The position numbers and the translations under genes were made by a program. The notes under the pieces are model-generated. The model did not search any database. It was not told the DNA's origin and was given only the letters and a program-made list of their open reading frames with translations. Shown here piece after piece: positions 40,245 to 57,110 of a stretch of DNA of 64,000 nt; the stretch's first letter is position 1; the number at the start of each line of letters is the position of its first letter. This DNA is from Sphingomonas rhizophila (GTDB lineage: Bacteria > Pseudomonadota > Alphaproteobacteria > Sphingomonadales > Sphingomonadaceae), in the NCBI RefSeq assembly GCF_014396585.1, contig NZ_CP060717.1, positions 124,001 through 188,000 of the forward strand. The letters are read 5' to 3'.

Positions 40245-40492
40245 GCGGACAGCTCCGTGCGATAACGGCGGATGCCGTCGATCTTTTCGGACGTAACCGT
40301 GAAGCCCTTCTTCCTGAGCGAGCCGGACATGGCGCCCCGGACAGAGTGCTTTTGCCATCCGGTGACGACGACGAGCTCATCGATCGTTGCACCGCCCTTC
40401 TTGCCTAGCGCCGTGACGAGCAGGTCCAGTTTTGATGGCGGTCGCTCAGGCGCAGTGTGGGCAGTCTTCATCTTCGATTTAGGCTTGGTCAT
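40241..40492 (-). CDS. DUF3489 family protein
   Basis: An 83-residue basic protein: MTKPKSKMKTAHTAPERPPSKLDLLVTALGKKGGATIDELVVVTGWQKHSVRGAMSG with SLRKKGFTVTSEKIDGIRRY, a winged-helix-like DUF3489 domain. ATG 40490-40492 is preceded by GGAGAACGAAG. It is the first of three overlapping genes (DUF3489-DUF2924-recombinase) and may regulate or assist recombination. Confidence 0.88.
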   Translation of the reverse strand: MTKPKSKMKTAHTAPERPPSKLDLLVTALGKKGGATIDELVVVTGWQKHSVRGAMSGSLRKKGFTVTSEKIDGIRRYRTELSA

Positions 40493-40565
40493 CTTCGTTC
40501 TCCGGCTCGGGCGCCAGAAGTTGGCGCCGCTACCGAGACGAGCCCCGCGTCGGGGAGAACAAACC

Positions 40566-41930
40566 ATGCCCAATATCCACAGGCTCATCCAGTCCGAAAT
40601 AGGTTACCGCTTTGAAAAGAGTGTAGGTTCGCGCTATGTTCCAACGCATGAGCAAGAGTGTCGCGGGGCGCACCCCAGTCGCCGCGATCTGTCGGTAATC
40701 TACCGGCCGATCGCTGATCTCAAACCGGATCCACGCAATGCGCGGACCCATCCCAAGAAGCAGATCGAGCAGCTGTGCTCGTCGATCCGGAATTTCGGGT
40801 TCACCAACCCAGTCCTGGTCGACGAAACCGGCACGCTTATTGCCGGGCACGGCCGACTAAGAGCGGCCAAGGAGCTTGGCCTTTCCACAGTACCCGTCAT
40901 TGAACTTCTCGACCTTAATGAAGCGCAGAAGAAGGCGCTTCGCCTTGCCGACAACAAGATTGCCCTGAATGCTGGTTGGGACCTCGAAATCCTCAAACTC
41001 GAATTGGCGGACATTGCCACGCTCGACGTCGACTTCGACTTGTCGCTGACCGGCTTCGCTTCCGGCGAGATCGACGTGGTCCTGAAAGCCGCCAACGACC
41101 CTGCAGAGGAAATCATCCCGGCTGTCCCGAACGATCCAAAGACGAAAGTTGGGGATATCTGGATCCTTGGGGATCATCGCATCGGATGCGGAGACGGCCG
41201 CGATGTCGAGTTCCTCCAGCGGGTCGTCGGCGATGGCCAGTCGATCGACGCCGCCTTCATGGACCCGCCCTACAATGTGAAGATCAACGGCCACGCCAAC
41301 ACCAAAGGCAGGCATCGCGAATTCGCGATGGCGTCCGGTGAAATGACCGACAGCGAGTTTCGCACGTTCTTGCGCGAGACGCTTGGCGCTGCCGCAAAGG
41401 TCTCTCGAAACGGCGCAGTTCACTTCATCTGCATGGACTGGCGTCACCTCGACGACGTCAGCGCCATAGGCGCCGGCATTTACGATGAGCTTCTCAACAT
41501 CTGTGTCTGGAACAAGAGCAACGCCGGCATGGGCTCGCTCTACCGGTCGAAGCACGAGATGGTGTTCGTCTATCGGGTAGGCTCGGCGGCGCATGCGAAC
41601 ATGGTTGAGCTCGGCAAGTATGGCCGCAACCGGACCAATGTCTGGGATTACCCGTCCGTCAATTCGATGGCCGGCAGTCGGCGTGAGGACCTCGCCCTTC
41701 ATCCGACCGTCAAGCCCGTCGCAATGGTGGCGGACGCCTACCAGGACGTTACGAAGCGAGGCGACCTCGTCTTCGACATGTTCCTGGGATCGGGAACCTC
41801 ATTGATTGCTGCCGAGCGCACAGGTCGCCGCTTCCGCGGCTGCGACATCGATCCTGCCTACGTCGATGTTGCCGTCGAGCGATGGGCCCAGATGACGGGC
41901 GGCACGCCTCGACTGGAGAAGGCGGCATGA
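40566..41930 (+). CDS. ParB-domain fused DNA N6-adenine/N4-cytosine methyltransferase (5' end possibly frameshifted)
   Basis: A ParB-like nuclease domain (YRPIADLKPDPRNARTHPKKQ, GFTNPVLVDETGTLIAGHGRLRAAKELGL) is fused to a methyltransferase with the catalytic DPPYNV before the SAM motif FLGSGTSLIAAERTGRRFRGCDID, the beta-class order also seen in CcrM. Recognition site unknown; no restriction enzyme is adjacent. In the given frame the start would be ATG 40566. But ATG 40648 in another frame reads MSKSVAG and would join the domain if the GGGG run at 40665-40668 had one more base. Such proteins are common in prophages. Confidence 0.88.
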   Translation: MPNIHRLIQSEIGYRFEKSVGSRYVPTHEQECRGAHPSRRDLSVIYRPIADLKPDPRNARTHPKKQIEQLCSSIRNFGFTNPVLVDETGTLIAGHGRLRAAKELGLSTVPVIELLDLNEAQKKALRLADNKIALNAGWDLEILKLELADIATLDVDFDLSLTGFASGEIDVVLKAANDPAEEIIPAVPNDPKTKVGDIWILGDHRIGCGDGRDVEFLQRVVGDGQSIDAAFMDPPYNVKINGHANTKGRHREFAMASGEMTDSEFRTFLRETLGAAAKVSRNGAVHFICMDWRHLDDVSAIGAGIYDELLNICVWNKSNAGMGSLYRSKHEMVFVYRVGSAAHANMVELGKYGRNRTNVWDYPSVNSMAGSRREDLALHPTVKPVAMVADAYQDVTKRGDLVFDMFLGSGTSLIAAERTGRRFRGCDIDPAYVDVAVERWAQMTGGTPRLEKAA

Positions 41931-42459
41931 GTGGCGGTCGATTTGTCAAAGGACAGAGCGGCAATCCCAATGGCCGTCCCAAGGCACGACGACCAAATGT
42001 CTCAGCCTTCGACATCATCTTCGACAAAAAGCTGTCTTCCTCCCAAGGTGGCGTTGAGCAGGAGATTTCGGTCGACGAAGCTCTCGAGTTGCAGACGTAT
42101 CAAGGAGCTTTGAAGGGCAGCAAAATGGCCGTGCGCGCGGTGCTCAAGATGATCGCAAAGCGAGAGGCGGCAGTCTTGAAGACTGCGCCTCCCGGGCTCC
42201 ATACGCGATGGAATGGAAGTGGGAAGAAGACCCGCGAAACGCCGACGATGCGATGCTGCTGTTGGGGATAACCGTCCCTGATCCCAAGTGGACCGATCGC
42301 CTCTGTAAATATGGCACACGAATGAAGATGTCCGATTGGGCAGCTCAGGCCGGCATCAGCCGACCTGGTCGTCGTGTCCTCGATACCAAGGACATTGAGG
42401 GCATTAAGATGTGCGCCCTCAATCCGCAAAATCTTAAATGGTCGCGGGGTTCCAGATAA
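41927..42459 (+). CDS. DUF5681 family protein 1 (frameshifted in this sequence)
   Basis: Starts MSGGRFVKGQSGNPNGRPKARRPN, the DUF5681 hallmark (FxxGxSGNPxGRP), overlapping the methyltransferase stop (ATGA). The frame breaks at the GGG run 42194-42196; one extra base continues as APYAMEWKWEEDPRNADDAMLLLGIT through to the stop at 42457-42459, giving about 177 residues. These proteins occur beside phage-like methyltransferases and terminases; the function is unknown. Confidence 0.78.
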
Positions 42460-43022
42460 TGACTCAATCAAGGCGTGATGAGCCTGAGCTTGGCTATGGG
42501 AAACCGCCGGTTTCTAATCGCTTCAAGAAGGGTCAAAGCGGCAACCCGAAAGGTCGCCCTAAAAATCGGAAGCGGGGCCTCCCGTATGACCACATTCTCG
42601 GCCAGATGGTGACGATCCGCGAGGGAGGTCGCGAGCGTCGGGTTACTGCTGCGGAGGCGTTCCTGTTGCATCTCACAAAAAAAGGGTTGGAAGGGGACAG
42701 TGCCGCCGCCCGAGCAGCCTTAGCTGCGATCGAGGACGCGCGTAGCAAAAGGCCGGAGGAACAAACGCTAGCGCGCACAATCGTTTGCAAGTCCGTCAGT
42801 CCAGGAAGTGTCGGCCAAGCGATAGATGCGCTTGGAATGGCCGTGAAGCTCCATCCCTATACTAAGGACGCACGCTACGCTCTCAAACCTTGGATTGTCC
42901 AAGTTGCCGTCAATAGGCTGAAGCCGGGCAAACTGACCTTGGCTGACCAACAGGTCGTGGTAGCCGCCACGCGAACGCCAGAGAAAGTGGTCTGGCCCGA
43001 CTGGTGGGAAGCGCGTTCCTGA
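42459..43022 (+). CDS. DUF5681 family protein 2
   Basis: A 187-residue protein with VSNRFKKGQSGNPKGRPKNRKRGLPYDHILGQMVTIREGGRERRVTAAEAFLLHLTKKGLEGDSAAARAAL, a complete DUF5681 domain. ATG 42459 overlaps the preceding stop (TAATG). It is a second, diverged member next to the first, so the pair may form one unit. The 250 bases after it contain nothing I recognise, and the accessory block probably ends here. Confidence 0.82.
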   Translation: MTQSRRDEPELGYGKPPVSNRFKKGQSGNPKGRPKNRKRGLPYDHILGQMVTIREGGRERRVTAAEAFLLHLTKKGLEGDSAAARAALAAIEDARSKRPEEQTLARTIVCKSVSPGSVGQAIDALGMAVKLHPYTKDARYALKPWIVQVAVNRLKPGKLTLADQQVVVAATRTPEKVVWPDWWEARS

Positions 43023-43275
43023 ACGCCTGCTTTGCGCCCTTCGCGGTCATTCAGAGCCAAAAATTGCTTTTCGGAAAGCAGACATTCGATCCCGATGCTG
43101 CGAAAAGGGGTTTGAACCAACCGGAGGTCCAGTTCCACGCAAACTGGCACAAGATTCGATTTCCGGTCTGAAGAATAAGCGAGTTTCGCAAGCCCCGCCG
43201 TCCCATCAAAGATGTTTTAGAGACCGCGTTGCACGCCGCGACGAAGCAAAGGGAAGGCAGAATCATTATTCGAGG

Positions 43276-44901
43276 CTAGGAATTGCGATGTATCCATGTT
43301 CGCAATATCATCAGCGCGCCGGCAGCTGCGCTGCAAACAGCCAAAACTGGCCAATCAGATGAGAGAATCGCAGCCGAAATCAACAGTGCTGCCGGTATCA
43401 CGCCTGGATTGCTCGCTGGCTTTTTTTCAAAGGCCCGCGAAAGGATTTGAAGATCGGTCGCGGAAATGGTCACGGGTATTTTCCCAGTGCGAGCGAATTT
43501 ATCGATTTGCCCGATGATTTCCGGAGTGCTCAGCGTTGCACGCGCTAAGGCCACTCCGATCTTCTTTGCTTCCTTCTTGAGCGTGATAAGGCTCGTTCGT
43601 TCGGCGATCAGCTCTCGTGCGACCGGCGCCAGTTCATCAGCGATATTGAACGCCGGGTCCAGTCGACGAACGAACCCTTCGGCGGTCAATAACGTTCGTA
43701 GTACGAGAGCAAGATCTGGCGGCAATGCCAGCTGAAACTCCCGCAGCAGACGGAAGACCTGCTCGAAGATTTTGGAAAGATCGACGTTCGAGAGCACAAC
43801 ATCCTTGAAGCTATCGATCAATTCGCCCAGCGCGAACTCCAGCCGGTCCCGATCCACTTCAGGATCCCCCGCCCAGATCATCAGGATGTCTGCTACCCCG
43901 GCAACATCGTCGGACGCGATAGAAAGGGCGAGCTGGACCAGTTGATCACGCCGCCGCGGCAAAAGCGTACCAACCGCGCCAAAATCGATGAAACCAAGCG
44001 ACCCGTCTTGCAGCAAAATCACATTGCCCGGATGCGGGTCGGCATGGAACTGCCCGTGGAAGATGATCGACCGCAAGATCGCCTGTGCGTAAGTGCGCGC
44101 TACGGCCTGTAAATCGACCCCGGCCTCACGCGCACGATCAAGATCTGTCGCAGGCGTACCGATCAATCGCTGCTGGACGTTGACGCGCCTTCCACTCAAC
44201 TCCCATTCAAAAGAAGCCGTACGGACGCCTAAGGGGGCGAGAAATGCGCCAATGGAGTCGCTTGATCGCCCTTCGGCCGACAGGTCCATTTCGCGGTCCA
44301 GGCTCTCAGCGAATTGACTGAGTAGTTCATCGGGCTTGAGCCTGGCGAGTTCGGGGATGCGGTTTGCGGCCGTTCGGGCAAACCTGCGCAACAGCCGGAG
44401 GTCGGCGTCGACGATCGCGCCGATGCCGGGACGGCGAATTTTGACGATGACCGATCGCCCGTCGAGCATCGTCGCGGCATGAACCTGTGCGATTGACGCG
44501 GCGGCAAGCGGCTCCCGGTCGAAGCTCGAGAAGTAGCTGTCCAGATCACCGCCGATCGCATCCTCAACCGCCGGAGCGATCTCCTCAAAGGGAACGGCCG
44601 GAACGCGGTCCTGCAAGGTTGACAGGGCGTTGATCCACTGAGGGCCGAGCAAATCGCTGCGCATGGCGAGGATTTGTCCAAACTTGACGCCAACCGGTCC
44701 GATATCCCTGAGCAGCGCGACGACCGCATCGGGGCGGGCATCGACGAACTGCCCATCGTCTGGTGAGCCAAAACCTAGTTTTGCGCTCAGACCGCGCATC
44801 CCGTGCCGCCCGAGAAGTGTGACGAGCTGCGCGAAGCGATCACGCTCCCGCATGCGTTCTGCTTCTTGCCGTCGAGAGCCGGTTGAAGGATTCCGGCTCA
44901 C
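43276..44901 (-). CDS. UbiB/ABC1/AarF family atypical kinase
   Basis: A 541-residue protein with the family motifs: the KxGQ motif in VGVKFGQILAMRSDLLGP, the alanine-rich loop in PLAAASIAQVHAA, the catalytic FHADPHPGNVILL, and metal-binding FIDFGAVGTL. Two hydrophobic segments at the C-terminus anchor it in the membrane. UbiB/COQ8 proteins are ATPases supporting ubiquinone synthesis or lipid trafficking. It starts with GTG (44899-44901) overlapping the marR stop, an unusual link for this family. Confidence 0.9.
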   Translation of the reverse strand: MSRNPSTGSRRQEAERMRERDRFAQLVTLLGRHGMRGLSAKLGFGSPDDGQFVDARPDAVVALLRDIGPVGVKFGQILAMRSDLLGPQWINALSTLQDRVPAVPFEEIAPAVEDAIGGDLDSYFSSFDREPLAAASIAQVHAATMLDGRSVIVKIRRPGIGAIVDADLRLLRRFARTAANRIPELARLKPDELLSQFAESLDREMDLSAEGRSSDSIGAFLAPLGVRTASFEWELSGRRVNVQQRLIGTPATDLDRAREAGVDLQAVARTYAQAILRSIIFHGQFHADPHPGNVILLQDGSLGFIDFGAVGTLLPRRRDQLVQLALSIASDDVAGVADILMIWAGDPEVDRDRLEFALGELIDSFKDVVLSNVDLSKIFEQVFRLLREFQLALPPDLALVLRTLLTAEGFVRRLDPAFNIADELAPVARELIAERTSLITLKKEAKKIGVALARATLSTPEIIGQIDKFARTGKIPVTISATDLQILSRAFEKKPASNPGVIPAALLISAAILSSDWPVLAVCSAAAGALMILRTWIHRNS

Positions 44902-45341
44902 TTCGAGGCAGGTTCAATCAGGTCGACCGCCGCTTCGACCTTGGTCAGCATATCAGCAAATTTATTGAGCTCGTCCTCCGACAGTGCGCCCATGGTCCGC
45001 GAAAGTATCGTTTCGTAGAGCGGCTGGGCCCGCCCGAGCATGGCTCGACCCTCTGCCGTCAGCTCGAGAAGTTTGGTGCGGCGGTCGCCGGGAACCGGCA
45101 TACGCCGTAAGTGTCCGGCAGCTTCGAGAGCGTCAATCGCCTGCGTCACGGTGCGGGGCGCCTGGCCGAAGAATGACGCAATGTCCGTTGAGCGCTTCGA
45201 ACCATCTTCGAGGAATGCAAGGAGACGGATCTTGGCCAGCGAAGCGCCGTGTCGAGAAAGGTTGCGGTCGATGAGGCGCTGCAGGCGAAGATAAACCCAA
45301 GCGAACTGTTTCGAAACGGAAATTAGTTTGTGAGGTTCCAT
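44898..45341 (-). CDS. MarR family transcriptional regulator
   Basis: A 147-residue winged-helix repressor: MEPHKLISVSKQFAWVYLRLQRLIDRN, then LAKIRLLAFLEDGSKRSTDIASFFGQAPRTVTQAIDALEAAGHLRRMPVPGDRRTKLLELTAEG, the full MarR domain with the wing D-R-R. The start ATG 45339-45341 lies inside a CATATCATATG palindrome. It is divergent from the emrA-emrB-nodT-MCE genes and overlaps ubiB, so it probably represses both arms and responds to a transported compound. Confidence 0.93.
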   Translation of the reverse strand: MEPHKLISVSKQFAWVYLRLQRLIDRNLSRHGASLAKIRLLAFLEDGSKRSTDIASFFGQAPRTVTQAIDALEAAGHLRRMPVPGDRRTKLLELTAEGRAMLGRAQPLYETILSRTMGALSEDELNKFADMLTKVEAAVDLIEPASK

Positions 45342-45349
45342 ATCATATG
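45339..45349. promoter_or_regulatory. Possible MarR operator
   Basis: CATAT-C-ATATG is a perfect short palindrome overlapping the marR start codon, 80 bases from the emrA start. Short AT-rich palindromes of this sort serve MarR regulators, but the match is only by position and symmetry. Confidence 0.35.
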
Positions 45350-45428
45350 CTCTTGCTTCATTTGCGAGGATGGGGCAAGCGGCCCTTTTTCTGCAGAAAC
45401 CTGCGACTCCCAATCCTTCCGAGAACGA

Positions 45429-46577
45429 ATGATGGCCACACAAGTGATGGATGCGAACGAAAATTCTGCCGCCGGGTCTGAGCGCAAGTCTCCGCTGCGC
45501 TCGAGAAATGTCCGGATCGCGCTGCTGGTTGTGGCTTTGGCAGCCATCGCTTTCGGAATCTGGTGGTATCTCGACTACGAATCTCGCGGAAAGTATCTGC
45601 AAAGCACCAACGATGCGTTTGTTCAGGCGGATTCGGTCGTCGTCGCTCCCAAGATAGGTGGCTATATCGATCGCGTCTTTGTCGACGAGAACCAGACCGT
45701 CCGCGCCGGCCAGCCCCTCGCGCTGCTCGATGCGCGCGATTACCGGGCCCAGTCGTCGCAGATCCAGGCCCAAATCGAAGCGTCGCGCGCGACCGCTGAC
45801 ACTGTTCGCGCTCAGGTTGGGGAGCAGCAGGCAGCCTTGTCTCAGGCGCAGGCGCAGTTGAATGCAGCGCAATCGGACGTCGCCTTCGCGAGCGAACAGG
45901 TCGCGCGCTTCGAGCCGTTGGCTCGGACCGGCGCGGAGTCGCGCGAGCGGCTTAGCCAGCTGCGAAATCAGCTCCGGCAGGCCCAGGCGCAGGCAGCGAC
46001 GCGCCGGGCGGCTGTTTTGGCGGCGCAACGCCGCTTCGGCACGCTCGACGCCCAGATCGAGCAGGCGCTCTCGCAGGCCCGGGCGGGCGAGGCGCAGCTG
46101 AGGGCCGCCGATGTCAATGTGCAGAGTACGACGATCCGGGCCAGCATCGCCGGCCGGGTCGGGGACCTGGCTGTGCGCGTGGGTCAATTTGTTCAGCCAG
46201 GCACGCGGCTGATGACCTTGGTGCCGGTCGACAAAATCTACGTCGAAGCCAACTTCAAGGAGACGCAGGTCGGGCTCATGCGGGTCGGGCAGCCGGTGAC
46301 CATCAAGGTCGATGCCCTTCCAGGCATTGAGCTGACCGGAAAAATTGCAAGCTTCGCGCCGGGAACGGGGGCTCAGTTCTCAATTCTCCCGCCGCAAAAC
46401 GCGACCGGCAACTTCACCAAGATCGTGCAGCGGATCCCGGTTCGGGTGGCCATCGACGCCTCGCCTGAAGTCCGGCGGCTGCTGGCGCCCGGCATGTCGG
46501 TGCACGTCACTGCCGATACTCGTTCGGCTCGCGGCGAGTTGGATCGGATCCGTAAGGCGCAAGAAGCGAGAAGGTAA
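45429..46577 (+). CDS. emrA: HlyD/EmrA family membrane fusion protein
   Basis: A 382-residue periplasmic adaptor. N-terminal cytoplasmic tail, one membrane helix (IALLVVALAAIAFGIWWYLDY), then LQSTNDAFVQADSVVVAPKIGGYIDRVFVDENQTVRAGQPLALLD (lipoyl half), a long alanine/glutamine-rich coiled coil, and TTIRASIAGRVGDLAVRVGQFVQPG with the beta-barrel domain. It links the inner-membrane pump to the outer-membrane channel. Two consecutive ATGs (45429, 45432) are possible starts. The emrB frame begins 7 bases after its stop. Confidence 0.93.
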   Translation: MMATQVMDANENSAAGSERKSPLRSRNVRIALLVVALAAIAFGIWWYLDYESRGKYLQSTNDAFVQADSVVVAPKIGGYIDRVFVDENQTVRAGQPLALLDARDYRAQSSQIQAQIEASRATADTVRAQVGEQQAALSQAQAQLNAAQSDVAFASEQVARFEPLARTGAESRERLSQLRNQLRQAQAQAATRRAAVLAAQRRFGTLDAQIEQALSQARAGEAQLRAADVNVQSTTIRASIAGRVGDLAVRVGQFVQPGTRLMTLVPVDKIYVEANFKETQVGLMRVGQPVTIKVDALPGIELTGKIASFAPGTGAQFSILPPQNATGNFTKIVQRIPVRVAIDASPEVRRLLAPGMSVHVTADTRSARGELDRIRKAQEARR

Positions 46578-46583
46578 GCGAAG

Positions 46584-48142
46584 TTGGCGGCCTCCATCCC
46601 CATCGGCAAGACTGCAGCTCGGGAGGAACGGGCTGATCTAAGCGCTTGGTTGGCAGTGGCAGCTGGCAGCCTAGGTGCCTTGCTTGCTACGCTCGACGTC
46701 TCGATCGTCAACTCAGCCTTGCCGACCATCCAGGGTGAGATCGGCGCGACAGGCACCGAAGGCACCTGGATCGCGACCTCGTTCCTCGTTGCCGAAATCA
46801 TTATTATCCCGCTCAGCGCGTGGCTGGAGCGCTTGCTCGGACTGCGAACGCTGCTGTTCGTCGCGGTGACACTGTTCACCGGTTTTTCAATCCTGTGCGG
46901 AGTCGCGGACGATCTCACCACGATGATCATCGGCCGTGCAGGGCAAGGCATCACCGCCGGCGCCTTGATCCCCACCGCCATGACGATCGTTGCGACCCGA
47001 CTCCCGCCCCATCAGCAACCGATCGGCATGGCGCTGTTCGGCGTGACCGTCATCTTGGGGCCTGTCCTGGGTCCGCTGATCGGGGCTGGCTGACGGAAAA
47101 TCTCAGCTGGCATTACGCATTCTTTGTCAACGTTCCGGTGTGCATCGTTTTGCTTCTGCTGTTGTGGCTTGGCCTCCCCCATCAACGTCCGGACTGGAGT
47201 TATGTGCGCGAGGGCGACTGGTTTGGCATAGCCGGGCTCATTCTGGGTCTGGGTGGCCTCACCGTCGTGCTAGAGGAAGGCCATCGCGAAGAATGGTTTG
47301 AATCGCCTCTCATCATTCAATTGACGCTGATGACGCTCGTCGGATTCGCGCTTCTGCTGGTTGGCCAGAAATATGCGCGACGACCGGTCCTCAAGCTCAG
47401 TCTCATCTTCACCAGGCAATTCGGCAGTATCGTGATCATGGCGCTGGTGGTCGGCATGGCGCTCTACGGCACCATCTACGTCATCCCGCAATTCCTTGCC
47501 CTCATCTCCGACTACAACGCCCTACAGACCGGGTACGTAATCGCGCTGATGGGCTTGCCGGCGCTGTTCCTGATGCCGATCGTGCCTTTCCTCATCACCC
47601 GGATCGATATTCGGCTCGCGGTGGGCAGTGGTTTGCTGCTGATGGCGATCAGCTGCTGGATCACCACCAATCTGACGACCGAGGCCGGCGGCGGCGCATT
47701 CACGGCCGGTCAGATCCTGCGCGGAGTCGGCATGATCTTCACCATGCTGTTTCTCAATCAGGGGGCGATCGCGGCGGTGTCGAAGGAAGATGCCGGGGAC
47801 GCATCGGGCATCTTCAACGCCGCCCGAAACCTTGGCGGTTCCTTTGCGCTGGCAGCGCTTGCGACCATTCAGGATCAGCGTCTCTGGCATCATAGCCGCC
47901 GGATGGAGGAATCTCTCTCCGCCAACAGCTGGTCCGTGCAGGACTATCTGACGGGTATTCAGGCCGGTCTCGGCAGTGCCGAAGCCGCTATTCGGACACT
48001 CGCGGGTTCCATCCAGCAGCAGGCCTTCGTCATGACCTACAATGACATATTTTTTGTCATGACCGTCGTCATCGTCCTGTCCATTCCACTCGTCCTTTTC
48101 CTGCGTCCGCTGCCCAAGGGCATGTCGCTTTCCATGCACTGA
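46584..48142 (+). CDS. emrB: EmrB/QacA (DHA2) family MFS efflux pump (frameshifted in this sequence)
   Basis: A 14-helix drug/proton antiporter. The first part has LLATLDVSIVNSALPTIQGEIGATGTEGTWIATS and LGLRTLLFVAVTLFTGFSILCGVA, then GRAGQGITAGALIPTAMTI. The frame ends at 47093; adding a base to the GGGG run 47082-47085 restores GGWLTENLSWHYAFFVNVP and the remaining helices to 48142. The start is TTG 46584 behind an AAGGTAAGCGAAG site. EmrB pumps move hydrophobic compounds, fatty acids or uncouplers. Confidence 0.9.
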
Positions 48143-48148
48143 GGTTTC

Positions 48149-49648
48149 ATGCGCACCGCCTACCTCCCCATCCTCGCCGTGCTGGCCCTTGGCGGCTGCA
48201 CTGTCGGTCCAAACTACAAAGGTCCCGTGCCCCTTCCTGCCATCGCGAAACCGGGCGAGACTTTCGTTCGCGCCTCCCAGTCCACTTCGTCGAACCAGCC
48301 GGCACTGGCGCAATGGTGGACTGCGCTCAACGATCCCGTCCTCAATACACTTGAGGCTAGGGCGCTGGCCGGCAATCCGGGACTGGAAGCCGCTCGCGCG
48401 AGAATTGCGCAGGCTCGGCAAAACGTCCGTTTCGAGCGCGCGGATCGACTCCCGGCGGGCTCTGTACAGGGAAGATATGTCTACGCCGACTTGCCGGGTC
48501 TCGATCTCGAGCAGGGTGGCGGCTCGACGTCGGGACCGCCAACCTCGCCACCGACCGGCGACGAGGATTCGGAAGCAGGAACAACGATCGACTTTTTCAA
48601 TCTCGGCCTCAACGCAAATTGGGAAATCGACGTTTGGGGTGGCAAGCGGCGATCGGCCGAGGCAGCGTCCGCCCAGCTTGGCGCGGCCGTCGCCAATGAG
48701 GCCGACGCCCAGGTCCAGCTAACTGCTGAAATCGCCCAAGCCTACACGAACGTTCGCGAACGACAGCATCGTCTGGCTTCGTTGAGACTGGCCTCCGATG
48801 CTGATCGGACGCTTCTCGATCTGGCCGAGCAACGGTTTCGTCGAGGCGCGACCACCGCATTTGAAGTCGAAAAAACCAAAACTCAACTCAGGGCGACCAA
48901 CGCCGACATCGAGAAGGTTCAGGGCGAACTCGAGGTCTATCTCAACGCGCTTTCGGCGCTGACCGGCGCAGCACCCGGCGTTGTGGATCCTTTGCTGGCT
49001 CCACTCGGCTCGATCCCTCTGCCCCCGGCCTCGGTCGAAATAGGAGACCCCGCGTCGCTGATCGCCCGTCGGCCGGACATTCGTGCTGCCGAGCGCAACC
49101 TTGCAGCCGCGACTGCCAGGATTGGCGTTGTCGAGGCTGCACGGCTTCCAAAGATCAGCTTTATGGGAATTTTGGGAATAGGCGGAGCTTCACCGGGCGA
49201 CCTCTTCGACTTGGGTAACATGAGCAAGATAGCCTTGCCGCAAATTGAGTGGGGATTGCTGGATTTCGGCCGCAGCCTGGCGCGTCTTCGACAAACCCGA
49301 TCAGCGCGGGACGAAGCTGAGGCCCAGTATCGACAAGCCGTCTTGACCGCGCTCCAGGACGCGGAATCGTCGCTCTCGCGGTTCGGGCGCCAGCGGCAGT
49401 CGGTTGCCGAGTTGGCAGAAATCAAAGCGTCCGCCGACCGAAGCGCTGCTTTGATGCGACAACGGTACAACGTTGGAGCTGCCTCGCTCCGCGAAGCGCT
49501 CGAGGCGGACCGGCAGAGCCTCGAGGCCGGGCGCAATCTTGTCGCAGCAACGGCTGCGCTCACCGGTAGCTTCATTGCTGTTCAGAAATCACTGGGCCTT
49601 GGCTGGCAGCAGCCGCCATCCCCCGGCAGAGGCGACACAGGACGGTAA
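48149..49648 (+). CDS. NodT/OprM family outer-membrane efflux lipoprotein
   Basis: A 499-residue outer-membrane channel subunit. The lipobox is LALGGCTVGPNYK (Cys after GG), then the pattern ALAQWWTALNDPVLNTLEARALAGNPGLEAARARIAQARQNV, two repeats of the TolC-like coiled coil, and GPNYKGP typical of RND/MFS outer-membrane factors. It completes the tripartite pump with EmrA and EmrB. Its TAA overlaps the ATG of the MCE gene (TAATG). Confidence 0.95.
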   Translation: MRTAYLPILAVLALGGCTVGPNYKGPVPLPAIAKPGETFVRASQSTSSNQPALAQWWTALNDPVLNTLEARALAGNPGLEAARARIAQARQNVRFERADRLPAGSVQGRYVYADLPGLDLEQGGGSTSGPPTSPPTGDEDSEAGTTIDFFNLGLNANWEIDVWGGKRRSAEAASAQLGAAVANEADAQVQLTAEIAQAYTNVRERQHRLASLRLASDADRTLLDLAEQRFRRGATTAFEVEKTKTQLRATNADIEKVQGELEVYLNALSALTGAAPGVVDPLLAPLGSIPLPPASVEIGDPASLIARRPDIRAAERNLAAATARIGVVEAARLPKISFMGILGIGGASPGDLFDLGNMSKIALPQIEWGLLDFGRSLARLRQTRSARDEAEAQYRQAVLTALQDAESSLSRFGRQRQSVAELAEIKASADRSAALMRQRYNVGAASLREALEADRQSLEAGRNLVAATAALTGSFIAVQKSLGLGWQQPPSPGRGDTGR

Positions 49649-50523
49649 TGGAGACGCGATCCAACTTCCGGTTGGTACTGGCGGTCGTGGCAATACTGTT
49701 TCTCGGCCTCGCGTTTTTCGCTTTTTATATTTCGGGCGAATCGCGGTCGCTTGACGCGCGCTATCATGTCCATTTTACGAAGAGCGTATCAGGCCTGGAT
49801 GTCGGATCCGGTGTCACCTTGTCAGGCGTTCCAGTGGGTCGAATTGAAGCAATCTCAATCGACCCGCTCAATCCAGAAATAGTTTTGATCACGCTGGCGC
49901 TGAATGAAAAGGTGCCGATACGACGCGGTGTTCGAGCCGACATCAGCCGATCCTTGATGAGCGGAGATGCGACGCTCGTACTTATTCCGTCTTCTGAGGG
50001 GCCGCTAATCAATCCGGTAGGCCGCGATGATATCGGGCGAATATTAGCGGTCAGCAAACGGAGTAGTGGCGACCCCGCGCAGGAAGCTATGAGTGTCGCC
50101 CGTAAGCTCGACGGAGTCGTCGACAGTCTCGACGCCGAAGGTCAGCAGAAAATCTCGGCGACGCTTGAGGGGGTGGTGGAGCAGACCGCTGGATGGGAAA
50201 AGACCGCCTCACGCCTGACAAGGTCAATCAAACCTCGCAGCATTCGAATGGTGGCGGACGGAATCTCGGGCGCCGGACGAACAGCCGAGCGACTTAGCAG
50301 GTCAATTGAATCCGCTGACGGCGATGTCGCCCGCGCACGAGCAAGAATTCGCAGTTTTGGGGAAGGTGCTGACAATTTTTCCCGATCGTTGGAAGAGGCC
50401 CGTCCGTCGATCCAGCAGACGTCCCGGCAGTTGCGCCAATCAGAGAAAACTATTCGCGGCATCCGAGCCAACGTCGCGACCGGAAAGGACACCATCGAGG
50501 ATATTCTGCCAGATGGAAAATGA
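49648..50523 (+). CDS. MlaD/MCE family protein
   Basis: A 291-residue protein with one N-terminal membrane helix (LVLAVVAILFLGLAFFAFYI) and an MCE domain: YHVHFTKSVSGLDVGSGVTLSGVPVGRIEAISID, PEIVLITLALNEKVPIRRGVRADI, then a long helical tail. MCE proteins shuttle lipids across the periplasm. It is translationally coupled to the outer-membrane factor of the EmrAB pump, an unusual partner, which suggests the pump handles a lipid-like substrate or feeds it to this carrier. Confidence 0.9.
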   Translation: METRSNFRLVLAVVAILFLGLAFFAFYISGESRSLDARYHVHFTKSVSGLDVGSGVTLSGVPVGRIEAISIDPLNPEIVLITLALNEKVPIRRGVRADISRSLMSGDATLVLIPSSEGPLINPVGRDDIGRILAVSKRSSGDPAQEAMSVARKLDGVVDSLDAEGQQKISATLEGVVEQTAGWEKTASRLTRSIKPRSIRMVADGISGAGRTAERLSRSIESADGDVARARARIRSFGEGADNFSRSLEEARPSIQQTSRQLRQSEKTIRGIRANVATGKDTIEDILPDGK

Positions 50524-50667
50524 CCGATCACGCGGAGATGGAGTTTGTGCCAGCCAGAAAATCTCCCGTGCCAATTCTGCGATATCAGTCGGCAAGAATG
50601 GCTCCTGAGCTATCGCAAAGCAGACGGTCAGCTAACGGCCACTCTCGGACATTCGGTAGGCAAAAGG

Positions 50668-50703
50668 GCTAGCGTCCGCTTTCGACCCAAATCGGACGCT
50701 AGC
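50668..50703. repeat. Palindromic interspersed repeat, short form (copy 6), opposite orientation
   Basis: GCTAGCGTCCG (50668-50678) and CGGACGCTAGC (50693-50703) are perfect 11-bp terminal inverted repeats around CTTTCGACCCAAAT. It is the cleanest short copy and lies between the convergent MCE and rtcA genes. The rest of 50524-50790 shows nothing else. Confidence 0.85.
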
Positions 50704-50790
50704 GGTCGGTCGTGTGGCCGTGCCCGGCTGGGCAAAAGCCAATAGGCTGGTTGCTTGAACCTCGATATCGTTGCTGCGATAAGATTCACC

Positions 50791-51807
50791 TCATTGAACC
50801 GTCACGAGATGCGAGCCGTTCTCGCTTTCAGCGAATGTGCACCGCACCGGTAGGAATCGCGCAATCACGTCGGCAGCCGTTCGGCAGTGCTCGCTCGGTT
50901 TGACTGTCGTGAATGATCCGCCTCCGGCCACCGCAAACGGCAAGAGCAATTGGTCGGCCAAGTAAGGTCCCGCGAAAGCGTTCGAGGCGAGGTAGCCCTT
51001 CATGCGATTAGCAGCGGTGGCAGCCAGCTTCTCAGCCGACAGGCCAAGCTTACCAAAGCCGCTCACAATCTCGGTCACGTGCTCGAAAGCAGCTTCCAAT
51101 ACGAGGATCGTGCCGGGCCCCTGCTCTTCGGGCAGCTCCCGAATTGCGAGTGCGTCATCGGGCCACTCCGGCAACATTTTGCGCACGACCTTCAATTCGC
51201 GCTCGGCGATTTCGCGGGGAAGCGCAGCGAAAGTTGCTGTCGCGGCCTGTGACAACTCGGCCCCGCGCTCCTCACAAGCAATGGGTTGCAACGGCGCCGG
51301 ATCAATGTGGATTTCAATGCGTCCGCCACCGCGGGGATAGAACCCGTGACGGACAAGCTTTGTATCCACCGTAGGCCCCATCCGATTGATGACCGGCAAA
51401 AAGGAGCGCGCGATGAAATCGAAGGGAGGCGCGTAAATGTTATGCGTCCCTCCTTCGAGCACGATCCTTGAAGGGGCATCAGCGAGCAGCAACGGTATCA
51501 GAATAGTCTGCAGCACAAGGCTGGTGCTGCCGGCCGTGCCGACCGCAAAGTGATATTCGCCAGGCGATACAGACCCAGGATTAAAGGTGATCTCCGACGT
51601 TCCGACGCTCAAACCGTCACACGTTGCACCGCCGATCGCGCACGCGGCCTCGACTGCAGTGACGTGCTGACGCATGAGACCTGGCTTATCGCGGCCCCCG
51701 CGTGCGTTGATGATTTGGAACGGCTGGCCAGTGACCAAGGAAAGCGCGCACGCATTGCGCACCACCTGGCCACCACCTTCGCCTTCGGATCCGTCGATGA
51801 TGATCAT
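50791..51807 (-). CDS. rtcA: RNA 3'-terminal phosphate cyclase
   Basis: A 338-residue enzyme that uses ATP to convert RNA 3'-phosphate to the 2',3'-cyclic form. It begins IIIDGSEGEGGGQVVRNACALSLVTGQPFQI, the family signature, and includes RGGRDKPGLMRQHVTAVEAA and HGFYPRGGGRIEIHI. The active-site histidine lies near the end in KPSEHCRTAADVIARFLP. Expected length. It follows rtcB by 36 bases and shares its sigma-54 promoter. Confidence 0.96.
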   Translation of the reverse strand: MIIIDGSEGEGGGQVVRNACALSLVTGQPFQIINARGGRDKPGLMRQHVTAVEAACAIGGATCDGLSVGTSEITFNPGSVSPGEYHFAVGTAGSTSLVLQTILIPLLLADAPSRIVLEGGTHNIYAPPFDFIARSFLPVINRMGPTVDTKLVRHGFYPRGGGRIEIHIDPAPLQPIACEERGAELSQAATATFAALPREIAERELKVVRKMLPEWPDDALAIRELPEEQGPGTILVLEAAFEHVTEIVSGFGKLGLSAEKLAATAANRMKGYLASNAFAGPYLADQLLLPFAVAGGGSFTTVKPSEHCRTAADVIARFLPVRCTFAESENGSHLVTVQ

Positions 51808-51843
51808 GCTTTTCTCAGTACTGGGTAGTGCACGTAGCGGGAG

Positions 51844-53066
51844 CTACCCCTTTACGCACACCACCTGCTTCAAAGTGTGGACGATTTCGACCAAGTCGGA
51901 CTGGGCCGCCATGACCGCTTCGATCGGTTTGTAAGCCCTTGGGCTCTCGTCGATCATTCCCTCGTCCTTGCGGCACTCGACGCCAGCAGTGTCAGCGATG
52001 TGCTCGGCGAGCGTCACTTCTTTCTTTGCCTGCGTTCGTGACATCACGCGGCCGGCGCCGTGCGAGCAACTGTCGAACGACTCCTTGTTCCCAAGACCGC
52101 GGACAATAAACGACTTGGCTCCCATTGAGCCGGGAATGATACCCATCACACCCTTGGCTGCGCGGACGGCTCCCTTCCGGGTTACGAGGACGTTCTCGCC
52201 GAAGTGGTTTTCGCGAGTCACGTAATTGTGATGGCAGTTCACCGCCTCCAGTTCCGCGTCGAACGGTTTCGAGATTTGCGTCCGAAGGGCGCGGATGACG
52301 TTAGTCATCATCATTCGCCGATTAAGAGCGGCAAAGTCCTGAGCCCATTCGACCGCTTCCACATAGTCGTCGAAGTGATCGGTTCCTTCCGCGAAGTAAG
52401 CCAGATCCTGGTCAGGCAGGTTGATGAACCACTTGCGCATGTCCTGCTTGGCAAGCTCGATGAAGAATGTGCCAATCGCATTCCCGACGCCGCGCGACCC
52501 GGAATGCAGCATGACCCAAACGCGCTGCTCCGTGTCGAGACAGACCTCAATGAAGTGATTGCCCGTCCCAAGCGTACCAAGGTGCACAACGTTGTTCGTC
52601 TTCGCGAGCTTGGGATACTTTGCGATGATCTGATCGAAGCGAGCAGAAATTGTTGCCCACGCCTCCACGATCGCGGGGGGCGGATCTCCCCAAGAACCAG
52701 TGTCACGATTGCCGCGCCCAACCGTCCTCCCCACTGGAACGGCACGCTCTATCGCCGCGCGAATTCCTTCGAGGTTGTCGGGCAAATCGCTGGCCACCAG
52801 GGACGTGCGCGCGGCCAACATACCGCAGCCTATATCGACGCCTACCGCCGCCGGAATGATTGCACCCTTGGTAGGAATGACTGAACCAACGGTCGCGCCG
52901 ATCCCCACATGAACGTCGGGCATCACCGCAACGTGTTTGAAGACGAATGGCATCCTTGCAGCGCGGGCGAGCTGGTCTCGAGCCTTCTCATCCACCGGAA
53001 CGCCGCGGGTCCACATCTTGATGGGAACACCCCCTCAACGTGCTGGAAGTCAAAATTCTCGTTCAT
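51844..53066 (-). CDS. rtcB: RNA ligase RtcB (frameshifted at its 5' end in this sequence)
   Basis: A GTP- and Mn-dependent ligase that joins 2',3'-cyclic phosphate and 5'-OH RNA ends. Motifs: VGVDIGCGMLAARTSL with a metal cysteine, GRGNRDTGSWG, HLGTLGTGNHFIE, HSGSRGVGNAIG, the guanylylated histidine in SCSHGAGRVMSR, and CRKDEGMIDESPRAYK. The uninterrupted frame begins at ATG 53014-53016 (MWTRGVPV), but relatives start about 17 residues earlier. ATG 53064-53066 encodes MNENFDFQHVEG; one added base in the CCCCC run at 53030-53034 joins it as GVPIKMWTRG. Confidence 0.95.
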
Positions 53067-53165
53067 TGCTTTCGCCTCTTTTCGGCTTGGGGCGACCGGC
53101 CCATTCCGGCCGCCCCTTCCACCGCTGCGTCGGGCTGTTCGATTGCACCCGACCCAATTACAGGT

Positions 53166-53181
53166 TGCAGGTGATGTGCCA
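53166..53181 (-). promoter_or_regulatory. Sigma-54 (-24/-12) promoter for rtcBA
   Basis: On the minus strand TGGCACATCACCTGCA has GG and GC separated by exactly ten bases (consensus TGGCAC-N5-TTGCA with one mismatch at the -12 box). It lies about 100 bases upstream of rtcB. The adjacent gene encodes the sigma-54 activator RtcR. Confidence 0.8.
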
Positions 53182-53280
53182 ATTGCACCGATATTTCGCG
53201 CATCTAACCTAAGTATCTGGATTGCTTAGAATTAAAACATATTCCTTCAAAACCTGCATGTAGCAATCGACTGGCAAATC

Positions 53281-53294
53281 TATCGACATCGATA
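53281..53294. promoter_or_regulatory. Candidate RtcR upstream activator site
   Basis: TATCGA-CA-TCGATA is a perfect 6+6 palindrome about 100-115 bases upstream of the -24/-12 element and just before the rtcR start, the usual distance for an enhancer site. The surrounding 53219-53317 is distinctly AT-rich. Confidence 0.5.
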
Positions 53295-53317
53295 AACATT
53301 TATATCATGGTATCGCG

Positions 53318-54910
53318 GTGAAGCCCGTCGTCGTCATCGGTTTTGTTGGTTCTACGCTCGACGCGAGCAAGCGAGGTCCCACGCGCTGGAACCAGTGGCG
53401 CCCGAGCGTGGGGCTGACAATGCACGAAGATCTCCGTGTCGATCGCTTCGTCATGATACATGGTGGAGTTCATCGAGGCCTCGTTGATTACCTCGCCGAG
53501 GACATTGCGGCTGTCTCCCCGGAGACGATGGTCGAACCGATCCTGATGGACTTCGAAGACGCGTGGGACTTCGAAGAGGTCTACGGTAAGCTACTCGACT
53601 TCGTCCGTAGCTATCCGCTCGATCCCGATGCTGAAGATTATCTCATCCACATCACGACCGGGACGCACGTTGCTCAGATCTGCCTCTTCCTGCTGACCGA
53701 AGCGCACTACCTCCCAGGTCAACTTCTCCAGACCCAGCCTCGTCGCGGAGCCGTCGATCCGAAAGGCGTGTGGAACACCATTGACCTCGATCTGTCGCGC
53801 TATGACAGCATTGCGACGCGTTTTGCCGTGGCGACGGCAGAAAGTACGTCATTTCTGAAGTCCGGCATCGACACTCGAAACGCGGCCTTCAACCGCATGA
53901 TCGACGAGATCGAGCAAGTGGCCGTTCGGAGCCGTGCCCCCATCCTGTTGATGGGGCCGACGGGCGCCGGCAAAAGCCAGCTGGCCCGGCGAATATATGA
54001 TCTGAAGAAACTGCGGCACCAGGTGAAGGGGCCATTTGTCGAGGTGAATTGCGCGACCCTCAAGGGCGACGGCGCAATGTCAGCACTGTTCGGACACAAA
54101 CGCGGGGCGTTCACGGGCGCAGCGAGCGACCGCCCTGGCCTCTTGAAATCGGCGAACACAGGAACGCTCTTCTTGGACGAAATAGGTGAGCTTGGTCTCG
54201 ATGAGCAGGCGATGATCCTTCGCGCCATTGAGGAGAAGCGCTTTTTCCCCATGGGTGCTGACAAGGAAGTTGAAAGTGACTTTCAGCTTATTGCTGGCAC
54301 CAATCGTGATCTCGCGAGCCGCGTTACCGAAGGGCGGTTCCGGGACGATCTCCTAGCGCGGCTCAACCTTTGGACGTTCCAACTTCCCGGCCTAGCCGAA
54401 CGCCGAGAGGACATTGAGCCCAACCTCGATTATGAACTCGACCGCTTCGCTGAACGCGAAGGTGAGCGGGTCACCTTTAATAAGGAAGCGCGAGAGAGCT
54501 ATCTGGCGTTCGCGACCAGTGCGAGCGCCACTTGGCCCGGCAACTTCCGCGATCTTGCGTCAAGCGTCACCCGAATGGCAACTTTCAGCCCCAAGGGGCG
54601 GATCGATAAGAGCTTGGTCGACGCCGAGATAGCTCGACTGTCGGCGGCGTGGCGGCCCACTTCCGTGGCCGAGGATGGTCTAGATGACCTGCTATCAACT
54701 GAAACACTTCAATCGTTGGACCCTTTCGATCGGGTTCAATTGAGTCATGTCGTTGAGGTTTGTCGTGGCAGCCGATCACTTTCAGAAGCGGGCCGCTCAC
54801 TATTTTCTGCATCGCGGGCACAGCGCAGTACGACAAATGACGCTGATCGTTTGCGCAAATACCTAGCTCGCTTCGATCTTACCTGGGCAAACCTCCGTGA
54901 GACGAGATAG
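53318..54910 (+). CDS. rtcR: Sigma-54-dependent transcriptional activator RtcR
   Basis: A 530-residue activator. The first about 180 residues form the CARF-type sensor domain of RtcR (KPVVVIGFVGSTLDASKRGPTRWNQWRPSVGL), thought to bind RNA fragments with cyclic phosphate. The AAA+ domain follows: LLMGPTGAGKSQLA (Walker A), the sigma-54 contact GAFTGA in HKRGAFTGAASD, TLFLDEIGEL (Walker B) and GRFRDDLLARL. The C-terminal DNA-binding part includes LSEAGRSLFS. Start is GTG 53318. It is divergent from rtcBA. Confidence 0.96.
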   Translation: MKPVVVIGFVGSTLDASKRGPTRWNQWRPSVGLTMHEDLRVDRFVMIHGGVHRGLVDYLAEDIAAVSPETMVEPILMDFEDAWDFEEVYGKLLDFVRSYPLDPDAEDYLIHITTGTHVAQICLFLLTEAHYLPGQLLQTQPRRGAVDPKGVWNTIDLDLSRYDSIATRFAVATAESTSFLKSGIDTRNAAFNRMIDEIEQVAVRSRAPILLMGPTGAGKSQLARRIYDLKKLRHQVKGPFVEVNCATLKGDGAMSALFGHKRGAFTGAASDRPGLLKSANTGTLFLDEIGELGLDEQAMILRAIEEKRFFPMGADKEVESDFQLIAGTNRDLASRVTEGRFRDDLLARLNLWTFQLPGLAERREDIEPNLDYELDRFAEREGERVTFNKEARESYLAFATSASATWPGNFRDLASSVTRMATFSPKGRIDKSLVDAEIARLSAAWRPTSVAEDGLDDLLSTETLQSLDPFDRVQLSHVVEVCRGSRSLSEAGRSLFSASRAQRSTTNDADRLRKYLARFDLTWANLRETR

Positions 54911-54970: not shown

Positions 54971-55005
54971 GCTAGCGTCCGATTTGGGTGGAAAGCGGAC
55001 ATTAG
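54971..55005. repeat. Palindromic interspersed repeat, short form (copy 7)
   Basis: GCTAGCGTCCG (54971-54981), TTTGGGTGGAA core and CGGACATTAG end. It follows rtcR, and its terminal TTA (55002-55004) supplies the stop codon of the small minus-strand gene next to it. Confidence 0.85.
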
Positions 55006-55214
55006 GTTTGACGGCCCACCAGCCCAGCTTTGTGAACAGCCGCTCGGGCGCGGAAGCGGACCCGAGCACAGCGTTCGGTCAGTTCCTTCGGCGCATCTGG
55101 CGGACAATCGCAGCGAGTAGACAGCCAATCAATGTCGGCCGGGTCGAGCCAGAGCGCGATGCGCCCCTGTTGCCGTTCCGCCGCGTCGTCTGTTGGAATA
55201 GGCTCATTCCTCAT
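55002..55214 (-). CDS. Small hypothetical protein, 70 aa
   Basis: The product MRNEPIPTDDAAERQQGRIALWLDPADIDWLSTRCDCPPDAPKE... is rich in Arg and Asp with two cysteines close together and no membrane segment. Similar short proteins with a GRIALWLDPADI core are common in sphingomonads as far as I recall, but I know no function. Its stop lies inside repeat copy 7 and its start is just before copy 8. Confidence 0.5.
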   Translation of the reverse strand: MRNEPIPTDDAAERQQGRIALWLDPADIDWLSTRCDCPPDAPKELTERCARVRFRARAAVHKAGLVGRQT

Positions 55215-55236
55215 AGAGCTACCTTAGGCCGCGACC

Positions 55237-55271
55237 GCTAATGGCAGCAATGGGTCGAAAGCGAACGCTAG
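55237..55271. repeat. Palindromic interspersed repeat, short form (copy 8)
   Basis: GCTAATGGCAGCAATGGGTC followed by GAAAGCGAACGCTAG. The end overlaps the stop codon of the minus-strand gene at 55268. Confidence 0.75.
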
Positions 55272-55750
55272 AAAATGACAAGATGGCCGCCTTCAGGGAA
55301 TGGTCCACGCCATCCGCAGGGGAAGTGACCACGCTCATACCAGTAGGCTTGGCTGGCGTAGAAACCGGGAGGGAAAACGTCCGCAAACTCTGCTTCCATA
55401 CAAAGGTGAAGAATATCCCAGTTCACAGTATCGCTGAACGCACTTGGCAAGCTGTGCGCGGCAACAACATACCGCGTTTTGTCGTGGACTAGCGCCATCG
55501 CTGACGGCTTCACTGCGTTTACGACATCGTTCCATGTTGAAAAAGCTTGAGGTGAGCGTTCGAGCAGACGCTCGCGATAATGATTAGCCGCTTCAAGGCA
55601 CAAGTTCTCCCATTCCGGCGAAGAACAACTTGCGATTGCCGACGGCCAATCTGGTAACGTCGCGACAGCGGAAGAGGTTTGGACGCCGACGTTCGCGAAC
55701 CAATCGGCATTCCTTAGTTGCTCAAGCGTGGCCAATGTTCTCGGATGCAT
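55268..55750 (-). CDS. Hypothetical protein, 160 aa
   Basis: A soluble protein beginning MHPRTLATLEQLRNADWFANVG. It is helical in the first half (LCLEAANHYRERLLERSPQAFSTWNDVVNAVKP) with a mixed second half (LVHDKTRYVVAAHSLPSAFSDTVNWDILHLCMEAEFADV) and a Tyr/Gly/Pro-rich end (GFYASQAYWYERGHFPCGW). No domain is recognised, though the pattern is that of small immunity-like or effector-associated proteins, which is only an impression. Repeat copies flank it on both sides. Confidence 0.6.
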   Translation of the reverse strand: MHPRTLATLEQLRNADWFANVGVQTSSAVATLPDWPSAIASCSSPEWENLCLEAANHYRERLLERSPQAFSTWNDVVNAVKPSAMALVHDKTRYVVAAHSLPSAFSDTVNWDILHLCMEAEFADVFPPGFYASQAYWYERGHFPCGWRGPFPEGGHLVIF

Positions 55751-55771
55751 GCAGTCACTTTGGATGCCGAC

Positions 55772-55832
55772 GCTAATGTCCGCAATGGGTCGAAGCCGGA
55801 CGCGACGGGAATAGGTGGAAAGCGGACACTAG
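55772..55832. repeat. Palindromic interspersed repeat, long form (copy 9)
   Basis: GCTAATGTCCGCAATGGGTC, then GAAGCCGGACGCGACGGGAA and TAGGTGGAAAGCGGACACTAG. It occupies the 5' sides of both neighbouring genes. Confidence 0.85.
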
Positions 55833-55849
55833 TCCGTTATGGTCTGGGT

Positions 55850-56224: not shown

Positions 56225-56226
56225 TC

Positions 56227-56262
56227 CCTAATGACCGGAATGGGTCGAAAGCGGACGCTAGC
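56227..56262. repeat. Palindromic interspersed repeat, short form (copy 10)
   Basis: CCTAATGACCGGAATGGGTC then GAAAGCGGACGCTAGC. Located three bases after one stop codon and 15 before the convergent stop at 56278. Confidence 0.8.
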
Positions 56263-56277
56263 AAAAATGCGTAGACG

Positions 56278-56751: not shown

Positions 56752-56836
56752 GCTCTACTCCACAAAATGGGGTCCAAGGGGACTGGCCTAAGTTCGAATA
56801 GCTTCTCTAAAAAGATTCCTAAGCAATACAGCGCCG

Positions 56837-56898: not shown

Positions 56899-56915
56899 CG
56901 TGGCACGGTCGCGGC

Positions 56916-57104: not shown

Positions 57105-57110
57105 AGCTCA

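Follow-up and report, generated by a model that had tools for sequence, protein, structure and literature searches.

A divergent six-gene locus

The subject of this study is a six-gene locus in a 64,000-nucleotide stretch of the Sphingomonas rhizophila genome (contig NZ_CP060717.1, positions 124,001 to 188,000; hereafter, the window). The locus was first picked out from the DNA letters alone (the original prediction), and the positions assigned then to its six genes were confirmed in our analysis. On the minus strand lie a gene for a UbiB/ABC1-type protein of an accessory clade (ubiB-like, positions 43276 to 44901, 541 amino acids [aa]; Pfam ABC1, 191 bits) and one for a MarR-family regulator assigned by profile matches (marR, 44898 to 45341, 147 aa). 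The plus strand carries genes for an EmrA-type periplasmic adaptor (emrA, 45432 to 46577, 381 aa), an EmrB-type MFS transporter (emrB, 46584 to 48142; MFS_1), a NodT-type outer membrane factor (nodT, 48149 to 49648, 499 aa; TIGR01845, 290.6 bits, cut-off 210.05) and an MCE/MlaD-domain protein (mce, 49648 to 50523, 291 aa; PF02470, 50.7 bits, cut-off 25.1). The best NCBIfam match of EmrA, TIGR00998 (EmrA/EmrK), scored 249.5, below the cut-off of 390.8. The adaptor, the MFS permease and the outer membrane factor are adjacent, as in a tripartite pump of the EmrAB-TolC type. Translational coupling had been claimed for two gene pairs, and it is borne out by the junctions: the marR stop and the ubiB start overlap in GTGA, and the nodT stop and the mce start overlap in TAATG.

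The marR-ubiB and emrA-emrB-nodT-mce operons diverge from one conserved operator-like motif at positions 45331 to 45379 (no strand assigned), which overlaps the marR start. It reads TGAGGTTCCATA..AT.TG, followed by TTGC and, about 18 bases on, GGCAAG (in the window, CTTGC-N18-GCAAG), and it is common to this unit and four related loci (L146, L149, L160 and L174), being weaker in two further genomes, G020 and G021. The motif is a good candidate for a single operator of both operons. A scan for promoters and terminators gave matches no more numerous than those in shuffled sequences, and RNA scans returned a serC leader and a tRNA-Ser only.

The emrB gene is split over two reading frames in this assembly (46584 to 47093 and 47093 to 48142, with the break near 47.09 kb), a feature that the original prediction had not noticed. 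Each half separately matches MFS_1, and emrB is a single open frame of 519 aa in two near-identical sister copies of the locus, in genomes G025 and G062. Since this genome has another, more distant ubiB that is likewise split into two frames, and genome completeness is 93.95%, an assembly error is the likelier, if unproven, cause.

The UbiB-like protein contains PF03109 and a hydrophobic C terminus, and it keeps what we take, by name and by role, to be the KxGQ, Ala-rich loop, HADPHPGN and DFG motifs of the family (8 of 8 aligned sequences); domain and motifs together place it in the ABC1/UbiB superfamily. Its likeness to UbiB/COQ8 extends to profile matches, of which those to the bacterial ABC1-family structures 5yjz and 7cy2 are best and that to COQ8A is next and weaker. 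The score against the UbiB equivalog TIGR01982, however, is 344.5 bits versus a cut-off of 487.55, and the label of UbiB proper is thereby ruled out. In a tree of 121 UbiB rows, built by a quick search with SH-aLRT support and without bootstrap, the 71 accessory rows fall on one side of a branch with a support of 98. Five genomes with an accessory UbiB were checked, and each also has a second, more distant UbiB. Identical accessory UbiB proteins are present in different genera. Among L147, L148, L155, L165, L187 and L193, the accessory form is met under the titles Massilia, Noviherbaspirillum, Hydrogenophaga and Camelimonas; one contig titled Arthrobacter, which may be mislabeled, has a copy that does not differ from that of a Sphingomonas record.

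The MCE protein has one MCE domain (residues 39 to 114), preceded by a predicted N-terminal helix and followed by a long, predicted helical C terminus. The start assigned to mce is supported by the alignment, in which 14 of 14 sequences begin with MET, the starts of the relatives having been chosen by us. Profile matches covered PDB 13HR chain I over the whole length of the protein and, within the MCE region, chains of MlaD, Mce and PqiB; the many coiled-coil matches of the tail are no evidence of kinship. An MCE domain with an N-terminal anchor, by which we recognize Mla/MCE proteins, appears to be present, the anchor being predicted from the helix of a low-confidence model and from the sequence. 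The membrane-anchored domain and the full-length match to 13HR chain I liken the protein to lipid transport systems, presumably those named MlaD, Ttg2, LinM-like and Mce. Unlike these, the locus has no MlaE, MlaF or MlaC, and its mce is coupled to an exporter instead.

Conservation of the gene association

To survey gene neighborhoods, 84,980 species genomes were scanned with an alignment of eight accessory UbiBs, which yielded 354 relatives. The best 80 of these were surveyed, including 57 at an identity of at least 50% (accessory) and 23 at 32 to 38% (controls), and neighbors were recorded within 9.5 kb around UbiB, although some loci end early. EmrA and EmrB were both found at 40 of the 57 accessory loci, an MCE gene at 47, pump and MCE together at 33, and a MarR or TetR relative at 48, whereas each of these counts was 0 of 23 in the controls. 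PaaI-type thioesterases (27/57) and MlaE (12/57) were likewise absent from the controls, which contained MlaF alone in 4 of 23 cases. Restricting the count to loci that extend 8 kb or more on the left and 3 kb or more on the right gave the pump in 35, MCE in 36 and both in 29 of 44, as against 0 of 11 controls. Near-copies were then merged at 90% UbiB identity into 15 genome clusters, presence being counted anywhere in any cluster member; the pump was found in 13 of them, MCE in 7, both in 7 and a regulator in 9.

These counts, per locus as well as per cluster, rule out that ubiB and mce lack a conserved tie to the pump, which the original prediction had named as the outcome that would tell against it when it proposed such a survey. 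Three points from the survey nonetheless weigh against the functional proposal made below. MCE was not found in 8 of the 15 clusters (some loci end early), and it is missing from the 21.6 kb available for L146, the closest relative. In addition, the controls are mostly Betaproteobacteria and the neighbor queries were sphingomonad, such that divergent neighbors could be missed, which favors the result somewhat. Because of the clusters in which MCE was not found, UbiB, pump and regulator form the firmer core; MCE, thioesterases and Mla ABC genes are common additions. As judged from sequence, the conserved association joins an accessory UbiB-clade, ATPase/kinase-like protein to the EmrA-EmrB-NodT pump and to a regulator of the MarR (at other loci, TetR) family; roughly half of the lineages add an MCE protein.

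Plasmids carry relatives of the locus as well. Eight plasmid records, all sphingomonad, have UbiB relatives at 54.6 to 64.5% identity; other plasmid matches among the best 60 of 118 are at about 39% or less. MCE and MarR or TetR genes adjoin ubiB on six of the eight, the plasmid of Sphingobium sp. YBL2 has a MarR gene and the pump with MCE absent, and ubiB of S. yanoikuyae pF2 has no MCE, regulator or pump neighbors. In five, the ubiB stretch includes genes annotated as HlyD and MFS. An MCE match was found in eight plasmid records, in six of which MlaD, regulator and UbiB stand side by side; the other two are from Ruegeria, and the one examined carries an Mla ABC operon with no UbiB within 16.7 kb. 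Plasmid neighbors of the module include genes for PaaI thioesterases, alpha/beta hydrolases, P450 and acyl-CoA enzymes. Several of the plasmids are typed as conjugative, and their hosts are soil and water bacteria.

Movement of the unit and its putative carrier

A unit of 7608 bp (43034 to 50641, no strand assigned) that encloses the six genes recurs with the same ends and unrelated flanks in G025 (99.9% identity) and G062 (99.8%), and 12 columns differ among the three copies. Beyond it, the window shares no stretch of 300 bases or more with the 60 kb that were taken from either genome. Among the matches listed for the MCE protein in 149 genomes, 100% copies occur in G025 and G062 only, and full-length relatives at 40% in G020 and G021; no other listed match exceeds 40%, and those between 37 and 40% span only about the first 95 to 122 residues. 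G020 and G021 hold a diverged, 7716-bp version of the unit, 99.35% identical between them, with nothing else of at least 150 bases in common in the stretches compared. These data suggest that the unit passed between three species with hardly any change, apparently in the manner of a gene cassette. Its mobility is an addition to the original prediction, whose treatment of the six genes as one unit is supported both by the survey and by the movement of the whole.

The ends of the unit (43034 to 43055 on the left and 50618 to 50641 on the right) each carry one arm of a site of its own, and they are bordered by the presumed halves of a target site, 43010 to 43033 and 50642 to 50657, both recognized by the flank-join score (no strand assigned to any of the four). 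Joining the left and the right flank gave site-like sequences in all three genomes, scoring 18.1 bits (window), 12.7 and 8.9 bits, and the fractions of 20,000 random joins reaching these scores were 0.0002, 0.0012 and 0.0005. The junction of a circle formed from the unit ends scored 4.9 bits, a value reached by 0.0057 of random joins. Since the joined flanks regenerate site-like sequences in each genome, it is most likely that the unit was inserted centrally into palindromic sites already there. To the left of the unit (40464 to 43022) lie a ParB-N/N6_N4 DNA methylase gene and a DUF5681 gene, which we take to be phage-like in look; the stop of the DUF5681 open reading frame (ORF; 42438 to 43022) overlaps the left half of the target site.

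Palindromic sites of 34 to 63 bp form an array at genome positions 174671 to 221523 (window position 50668 onwards), with 37 merged sites. The next site to the right of the unit is at 50668 to 50707 (plus strand; hairpin z score, −4.15), and the array of short intervals starts at 54971 to 58003 (minus strand) with nine sites (54972 to 57969). When seven site sequences were folded as single strands, folding was strong for one short site only (−4.15), the others ranging from −2.68 to +0.61. The longest ORF fills at least 0.8 of the interval in 22 of the 24 intervals of 200 to 600 bp, versus a mean of 2.4 and a maximum of 7 in 100 dinucleotide shuffles. Relative to the site, ORFs are in the same orientation in 16 cases and in the opposite one in 10 (p = 0.33), and four small array ORFs searched against Pfam gave no match. 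The 4.3-kb interval between the sites at 50668 and 54971 is filled by the RNA repair genes rtcA, rtcB and rtcR (50791 to 54910), which may be another large cassette. An interval of 8.9 kb (window 58003 to 64000, genome 182.0 to 190.9 kb) holds genes for a TonB-dependent receptor, an MFS transporter and a carboxylesterase and, by eye, the start of an apparent acyl-CoA synthetase gene, and is a possible catabolic cassette. Between two array sites, on the minus strand at 57869 to 57960, there is a tRNA-like fragment, GGGTTCGAGTCCCGCTCATGGG, which ARAGORN did not call.

Inside the array, at genome positions 199154 to 199750, where the site orientation flips and the sites face each other, lies a gene for a tyrosine recombinase of 199 aa. 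PDB XerD was matched over residues 35 to 193 and the NCBIfam match begins at model position 111, consistent with a protein that has the catalytic domain only. A relative at 75% identity is located about 150 bp from the unit in G025, and a 42-residue recombinase remnant about 170 bp from the diverged unit in G020. In a set of 30 recombinase loci, 70 site matches were found in 21 loci, versus 0 of 25 and 1 of 25 in two sets of control loci; the 21 comprise all 19 loci with a recombinase at an identity of at least 68%, two of which (L053 and L055) come from stretches used to train the site model, and 2 of the 11 more distant ones. Across 71 genomes of the genus, the site pattern gave 1367 matches, with at least one in 60 genomes, and the reversed pattern gave 2. 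The median was 33.5 sites in the 18 genomes with a recombinase at an identity of at least 68% and 10 and 8.5 in the other two groups (one-sided Mann-Whitney p = 1.6e-4, kinship not corrected), and many genomes without such a recombinase also have sites. G014, G050 and G033 have 52, 44 and 62 sites with a best recombinase match of only E 1e-7 to 1e-8, and resemble integron cassette clusters without an integrase. A second cluster of site matches is present in the S. rhizophila genome at 1845444 to 1848340, and it is accompanied by two further tyrosine recombinases (1842263 and 1848460).

The carrier resembles integrons and CALIN elements in its palindromic sites, in an array of short one-gene cassettes with the recombinase inside it, and in insertion that leaves site halves on both sides. 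The integron attC core follows the rule GTTRRRY, whereas the sites listed here mostly end in ATTAG, GCTAG or GTTAG, as judged by eye. Integron ORFs are nearly all in one orientation, in contrast to the 16 versus 10 found here, and the unit differs from integron cassettes in that it is 7.6 kb long and has its own regulator. The recombinase resembles XerC/XerD and, unlike IntI, has no core-binding domain; according to the part of one paper that was accessible, simple tyrosine recombinases consist of a core-binding and a catalytic domain (PMC8138268). Domain content, site core and mixed ORF orientation rule out the label of integron, and the carrier is not one by these measures, though it seems to work like one.

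We tentatively propose that the unit could be an unusually large cassette of an undescribed integron-like system of sphingomonads, in which a single-domain tyrosine recombinase of about 199 aa, devoid of the core-binding domain and encoded where arrays of 34- to 63-bp palindromic sites face each other, would insert anything from small ORFs up to a regulated six-gene module into the middle of such a site. No description of such a recombinase/site system was found in the literature searched by title and abstract start, which covered few subscription papers.

Several results argue against site-directed entry. The unit of G020 and G021 fits the site test less well (flank joins reached by 0.015 and 0.0022 of random joins, circle junction by 0.066). 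In G062, the recombinase relative is at only 59% identity and far away, the site pattern has three matches, and a natural empty site for the unit was not found; since relatives of its left flank in the genus start mostly about 730 bp outwards among the matches listed, the empty sites considered are reconstructions. When 73 stretches were compared all against all (at least 80% identity over at least 150 bases), there was no common cassette beyond the two large units, the exceptions being presumed recombinase genes and one pair, L092/L100. A search for shuffling of small cassettes with 3 kb of the array was also negative: of 148 other genomes, 55 had listed matches, and these coincide with sites or lie beside them (two candidate places per genome scored), except for one 146-base stretch at 71% in G078 and two short ones in G081. 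A search of 65 module loci for other genera gave two weak site matches at one locus, and no recombinase relative at E 1e-15. Because sites and recombinase were not found around the module there, the carrier is confined to the genus of the window in our data; elsewhere, plasmids carry some of the module.

Proposed function and implications

The interpretation that we favor, with modest confidence, is that the locus would be a module complete in itself and passed on horizontally, which would give tolerance to a hydrophobic compound, probably an acid or a phenol, or serve its trafficking. The original prediction had read the combination as suggesting export or trafficking of a lipid-like molecule, since UbiB and MCE proteins both act on lipids or quinones; this is supported in part, in that the six genes form one unit, while a lipid or quinone cargo and a net direction of export are conjectural. 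A hydrophobic acid or phenol is preferred as inducer and cargo on account of the protein families, the operator motif and the plasmid neighbors taken together, and the thioesterases and hydrolases beside many relatives fit free acids as the cargo. The MarR protein would bind the one operator between the divergent operons and be released on binding the compound, which the pump would then take up at the inner membrane or in the cytoplasm and carry out past the outer membrane. Anchored in the membrane, the MCE protein could form a periplasmic ring or tube that passes on the hydrophobic compound or displaced lipid. At the cytoplasmic face, the UbiB-like protein would use ATP to draw hydrophobic molecules from the membrane, either the compound itself or quinones and lipids disturbed by it.

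Weighing against this proposal, emrB is broken in this assembly, so the window copy may not work. Among solved structures, it is bacterial ABC1 proteins that match the UbiB-like protein best, and there is a weak NCBIfam match to a macrolide-binding ATPase (86.7 bits, far below the cut-off); for these two reasons, drug handling unrelated to lipids is a possible role. The structure model of the MCE protein is poor (mean pLDDT 53.7, C terminus mostly below 50). Neither MlaE nor MlaF was found by Pfam beside mce in the unit, and the only MlaE found in this genome is at 1941566, 1.8 Mb away.

Among the closest known systems are EmrAB-TolC and RmrAB, which likewise bring an adaptor, an MFS permease, an outer membrane factor and MarR-type control together in one place; the unit differs from them in being tied to a dedicated UbiB clade and often to MCE, and in an EmrA that falls below the EmrA/EmrK cut-off. 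EmrAB classically exports uncouplers, MarR-type regulators sense phenols, and UbiB relatives serve quinone synthesis. The pump could be an ordinary EmrAB-type multidrug exporter, with the UbiB-like and MCE proteins engaged in separate envelope repair (quinone content and lipid order) during uncoupler or solvent removal, under the same regulon and with no common cargo, and the variability of MCE across clusters would be expected of an add-on. We regard this alternative as unlikely but worth serious consideration: UbiB belongs to a dedicated clade tied to the pump in 13 of the 15 clusters, and the accessory-UbiB genomes checked each have another UbiB.

It is improbable that the module serves uptake, with MCE and Mla-type ABC permeases importing hydrophobic nutrients for catabolism and the pump clearing toxic breakdown acids. 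MlaE beside 12 of 57 relatives and catabolic-looking acyl-CoA, P450 or hydrolase genes as neighbors on three plasmids are consistent with import, as is the lipid import by mycobacterial MCE systems described in the part of one article that was accessible (PMC9947336), but the unit has no permease of its own, the only MlaE found in the genome being remote, and the gene with which mce is coupled in translation encodes an outer membrane factor that belongs to an exporter. Chance neighbors or an assembly artifact, to which the split emrB and the 94% completeness could point, are hardly credible, given the same six genes in the same order at 99.8 to 99.9% identity in two genomes with other flanks, the 99.35% pair of the diverged version in two more, and a wide survey (33/57 versus 0/23) that speaks against chance association.

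Each protein family in this tolerance or trafficking module is already known; what may be new is the combination. The original prediction had not recognized it as a described unit, and in agreement with this, no description of the gene combination was found in the literature searched, with the scope given above. A study of Escherichia coli exposed to volatile organic compounds contains, in the part accessible, the words ubiB, mlaD and emrB (PMC4730218).

Taken together, what began as a guess from a single sequence is now a module that can be tested. Because its dedicated UbiB clade goes with an efflux pump, the UbiB/COQ8 and MCE families, both of them poorly understood, become connected with a single phenotype that lends itself to selection. 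Its movement points to integron-like capture in a class, the Alphaproteobacteria, from which integrons are entirely absent according to the accessible part of one report (PMC9668308). If true, the integron-like system would be the missing counterpart of integrons in the Alphaproteobacteria, and the carrier may be a larger finding than the pump module itself.

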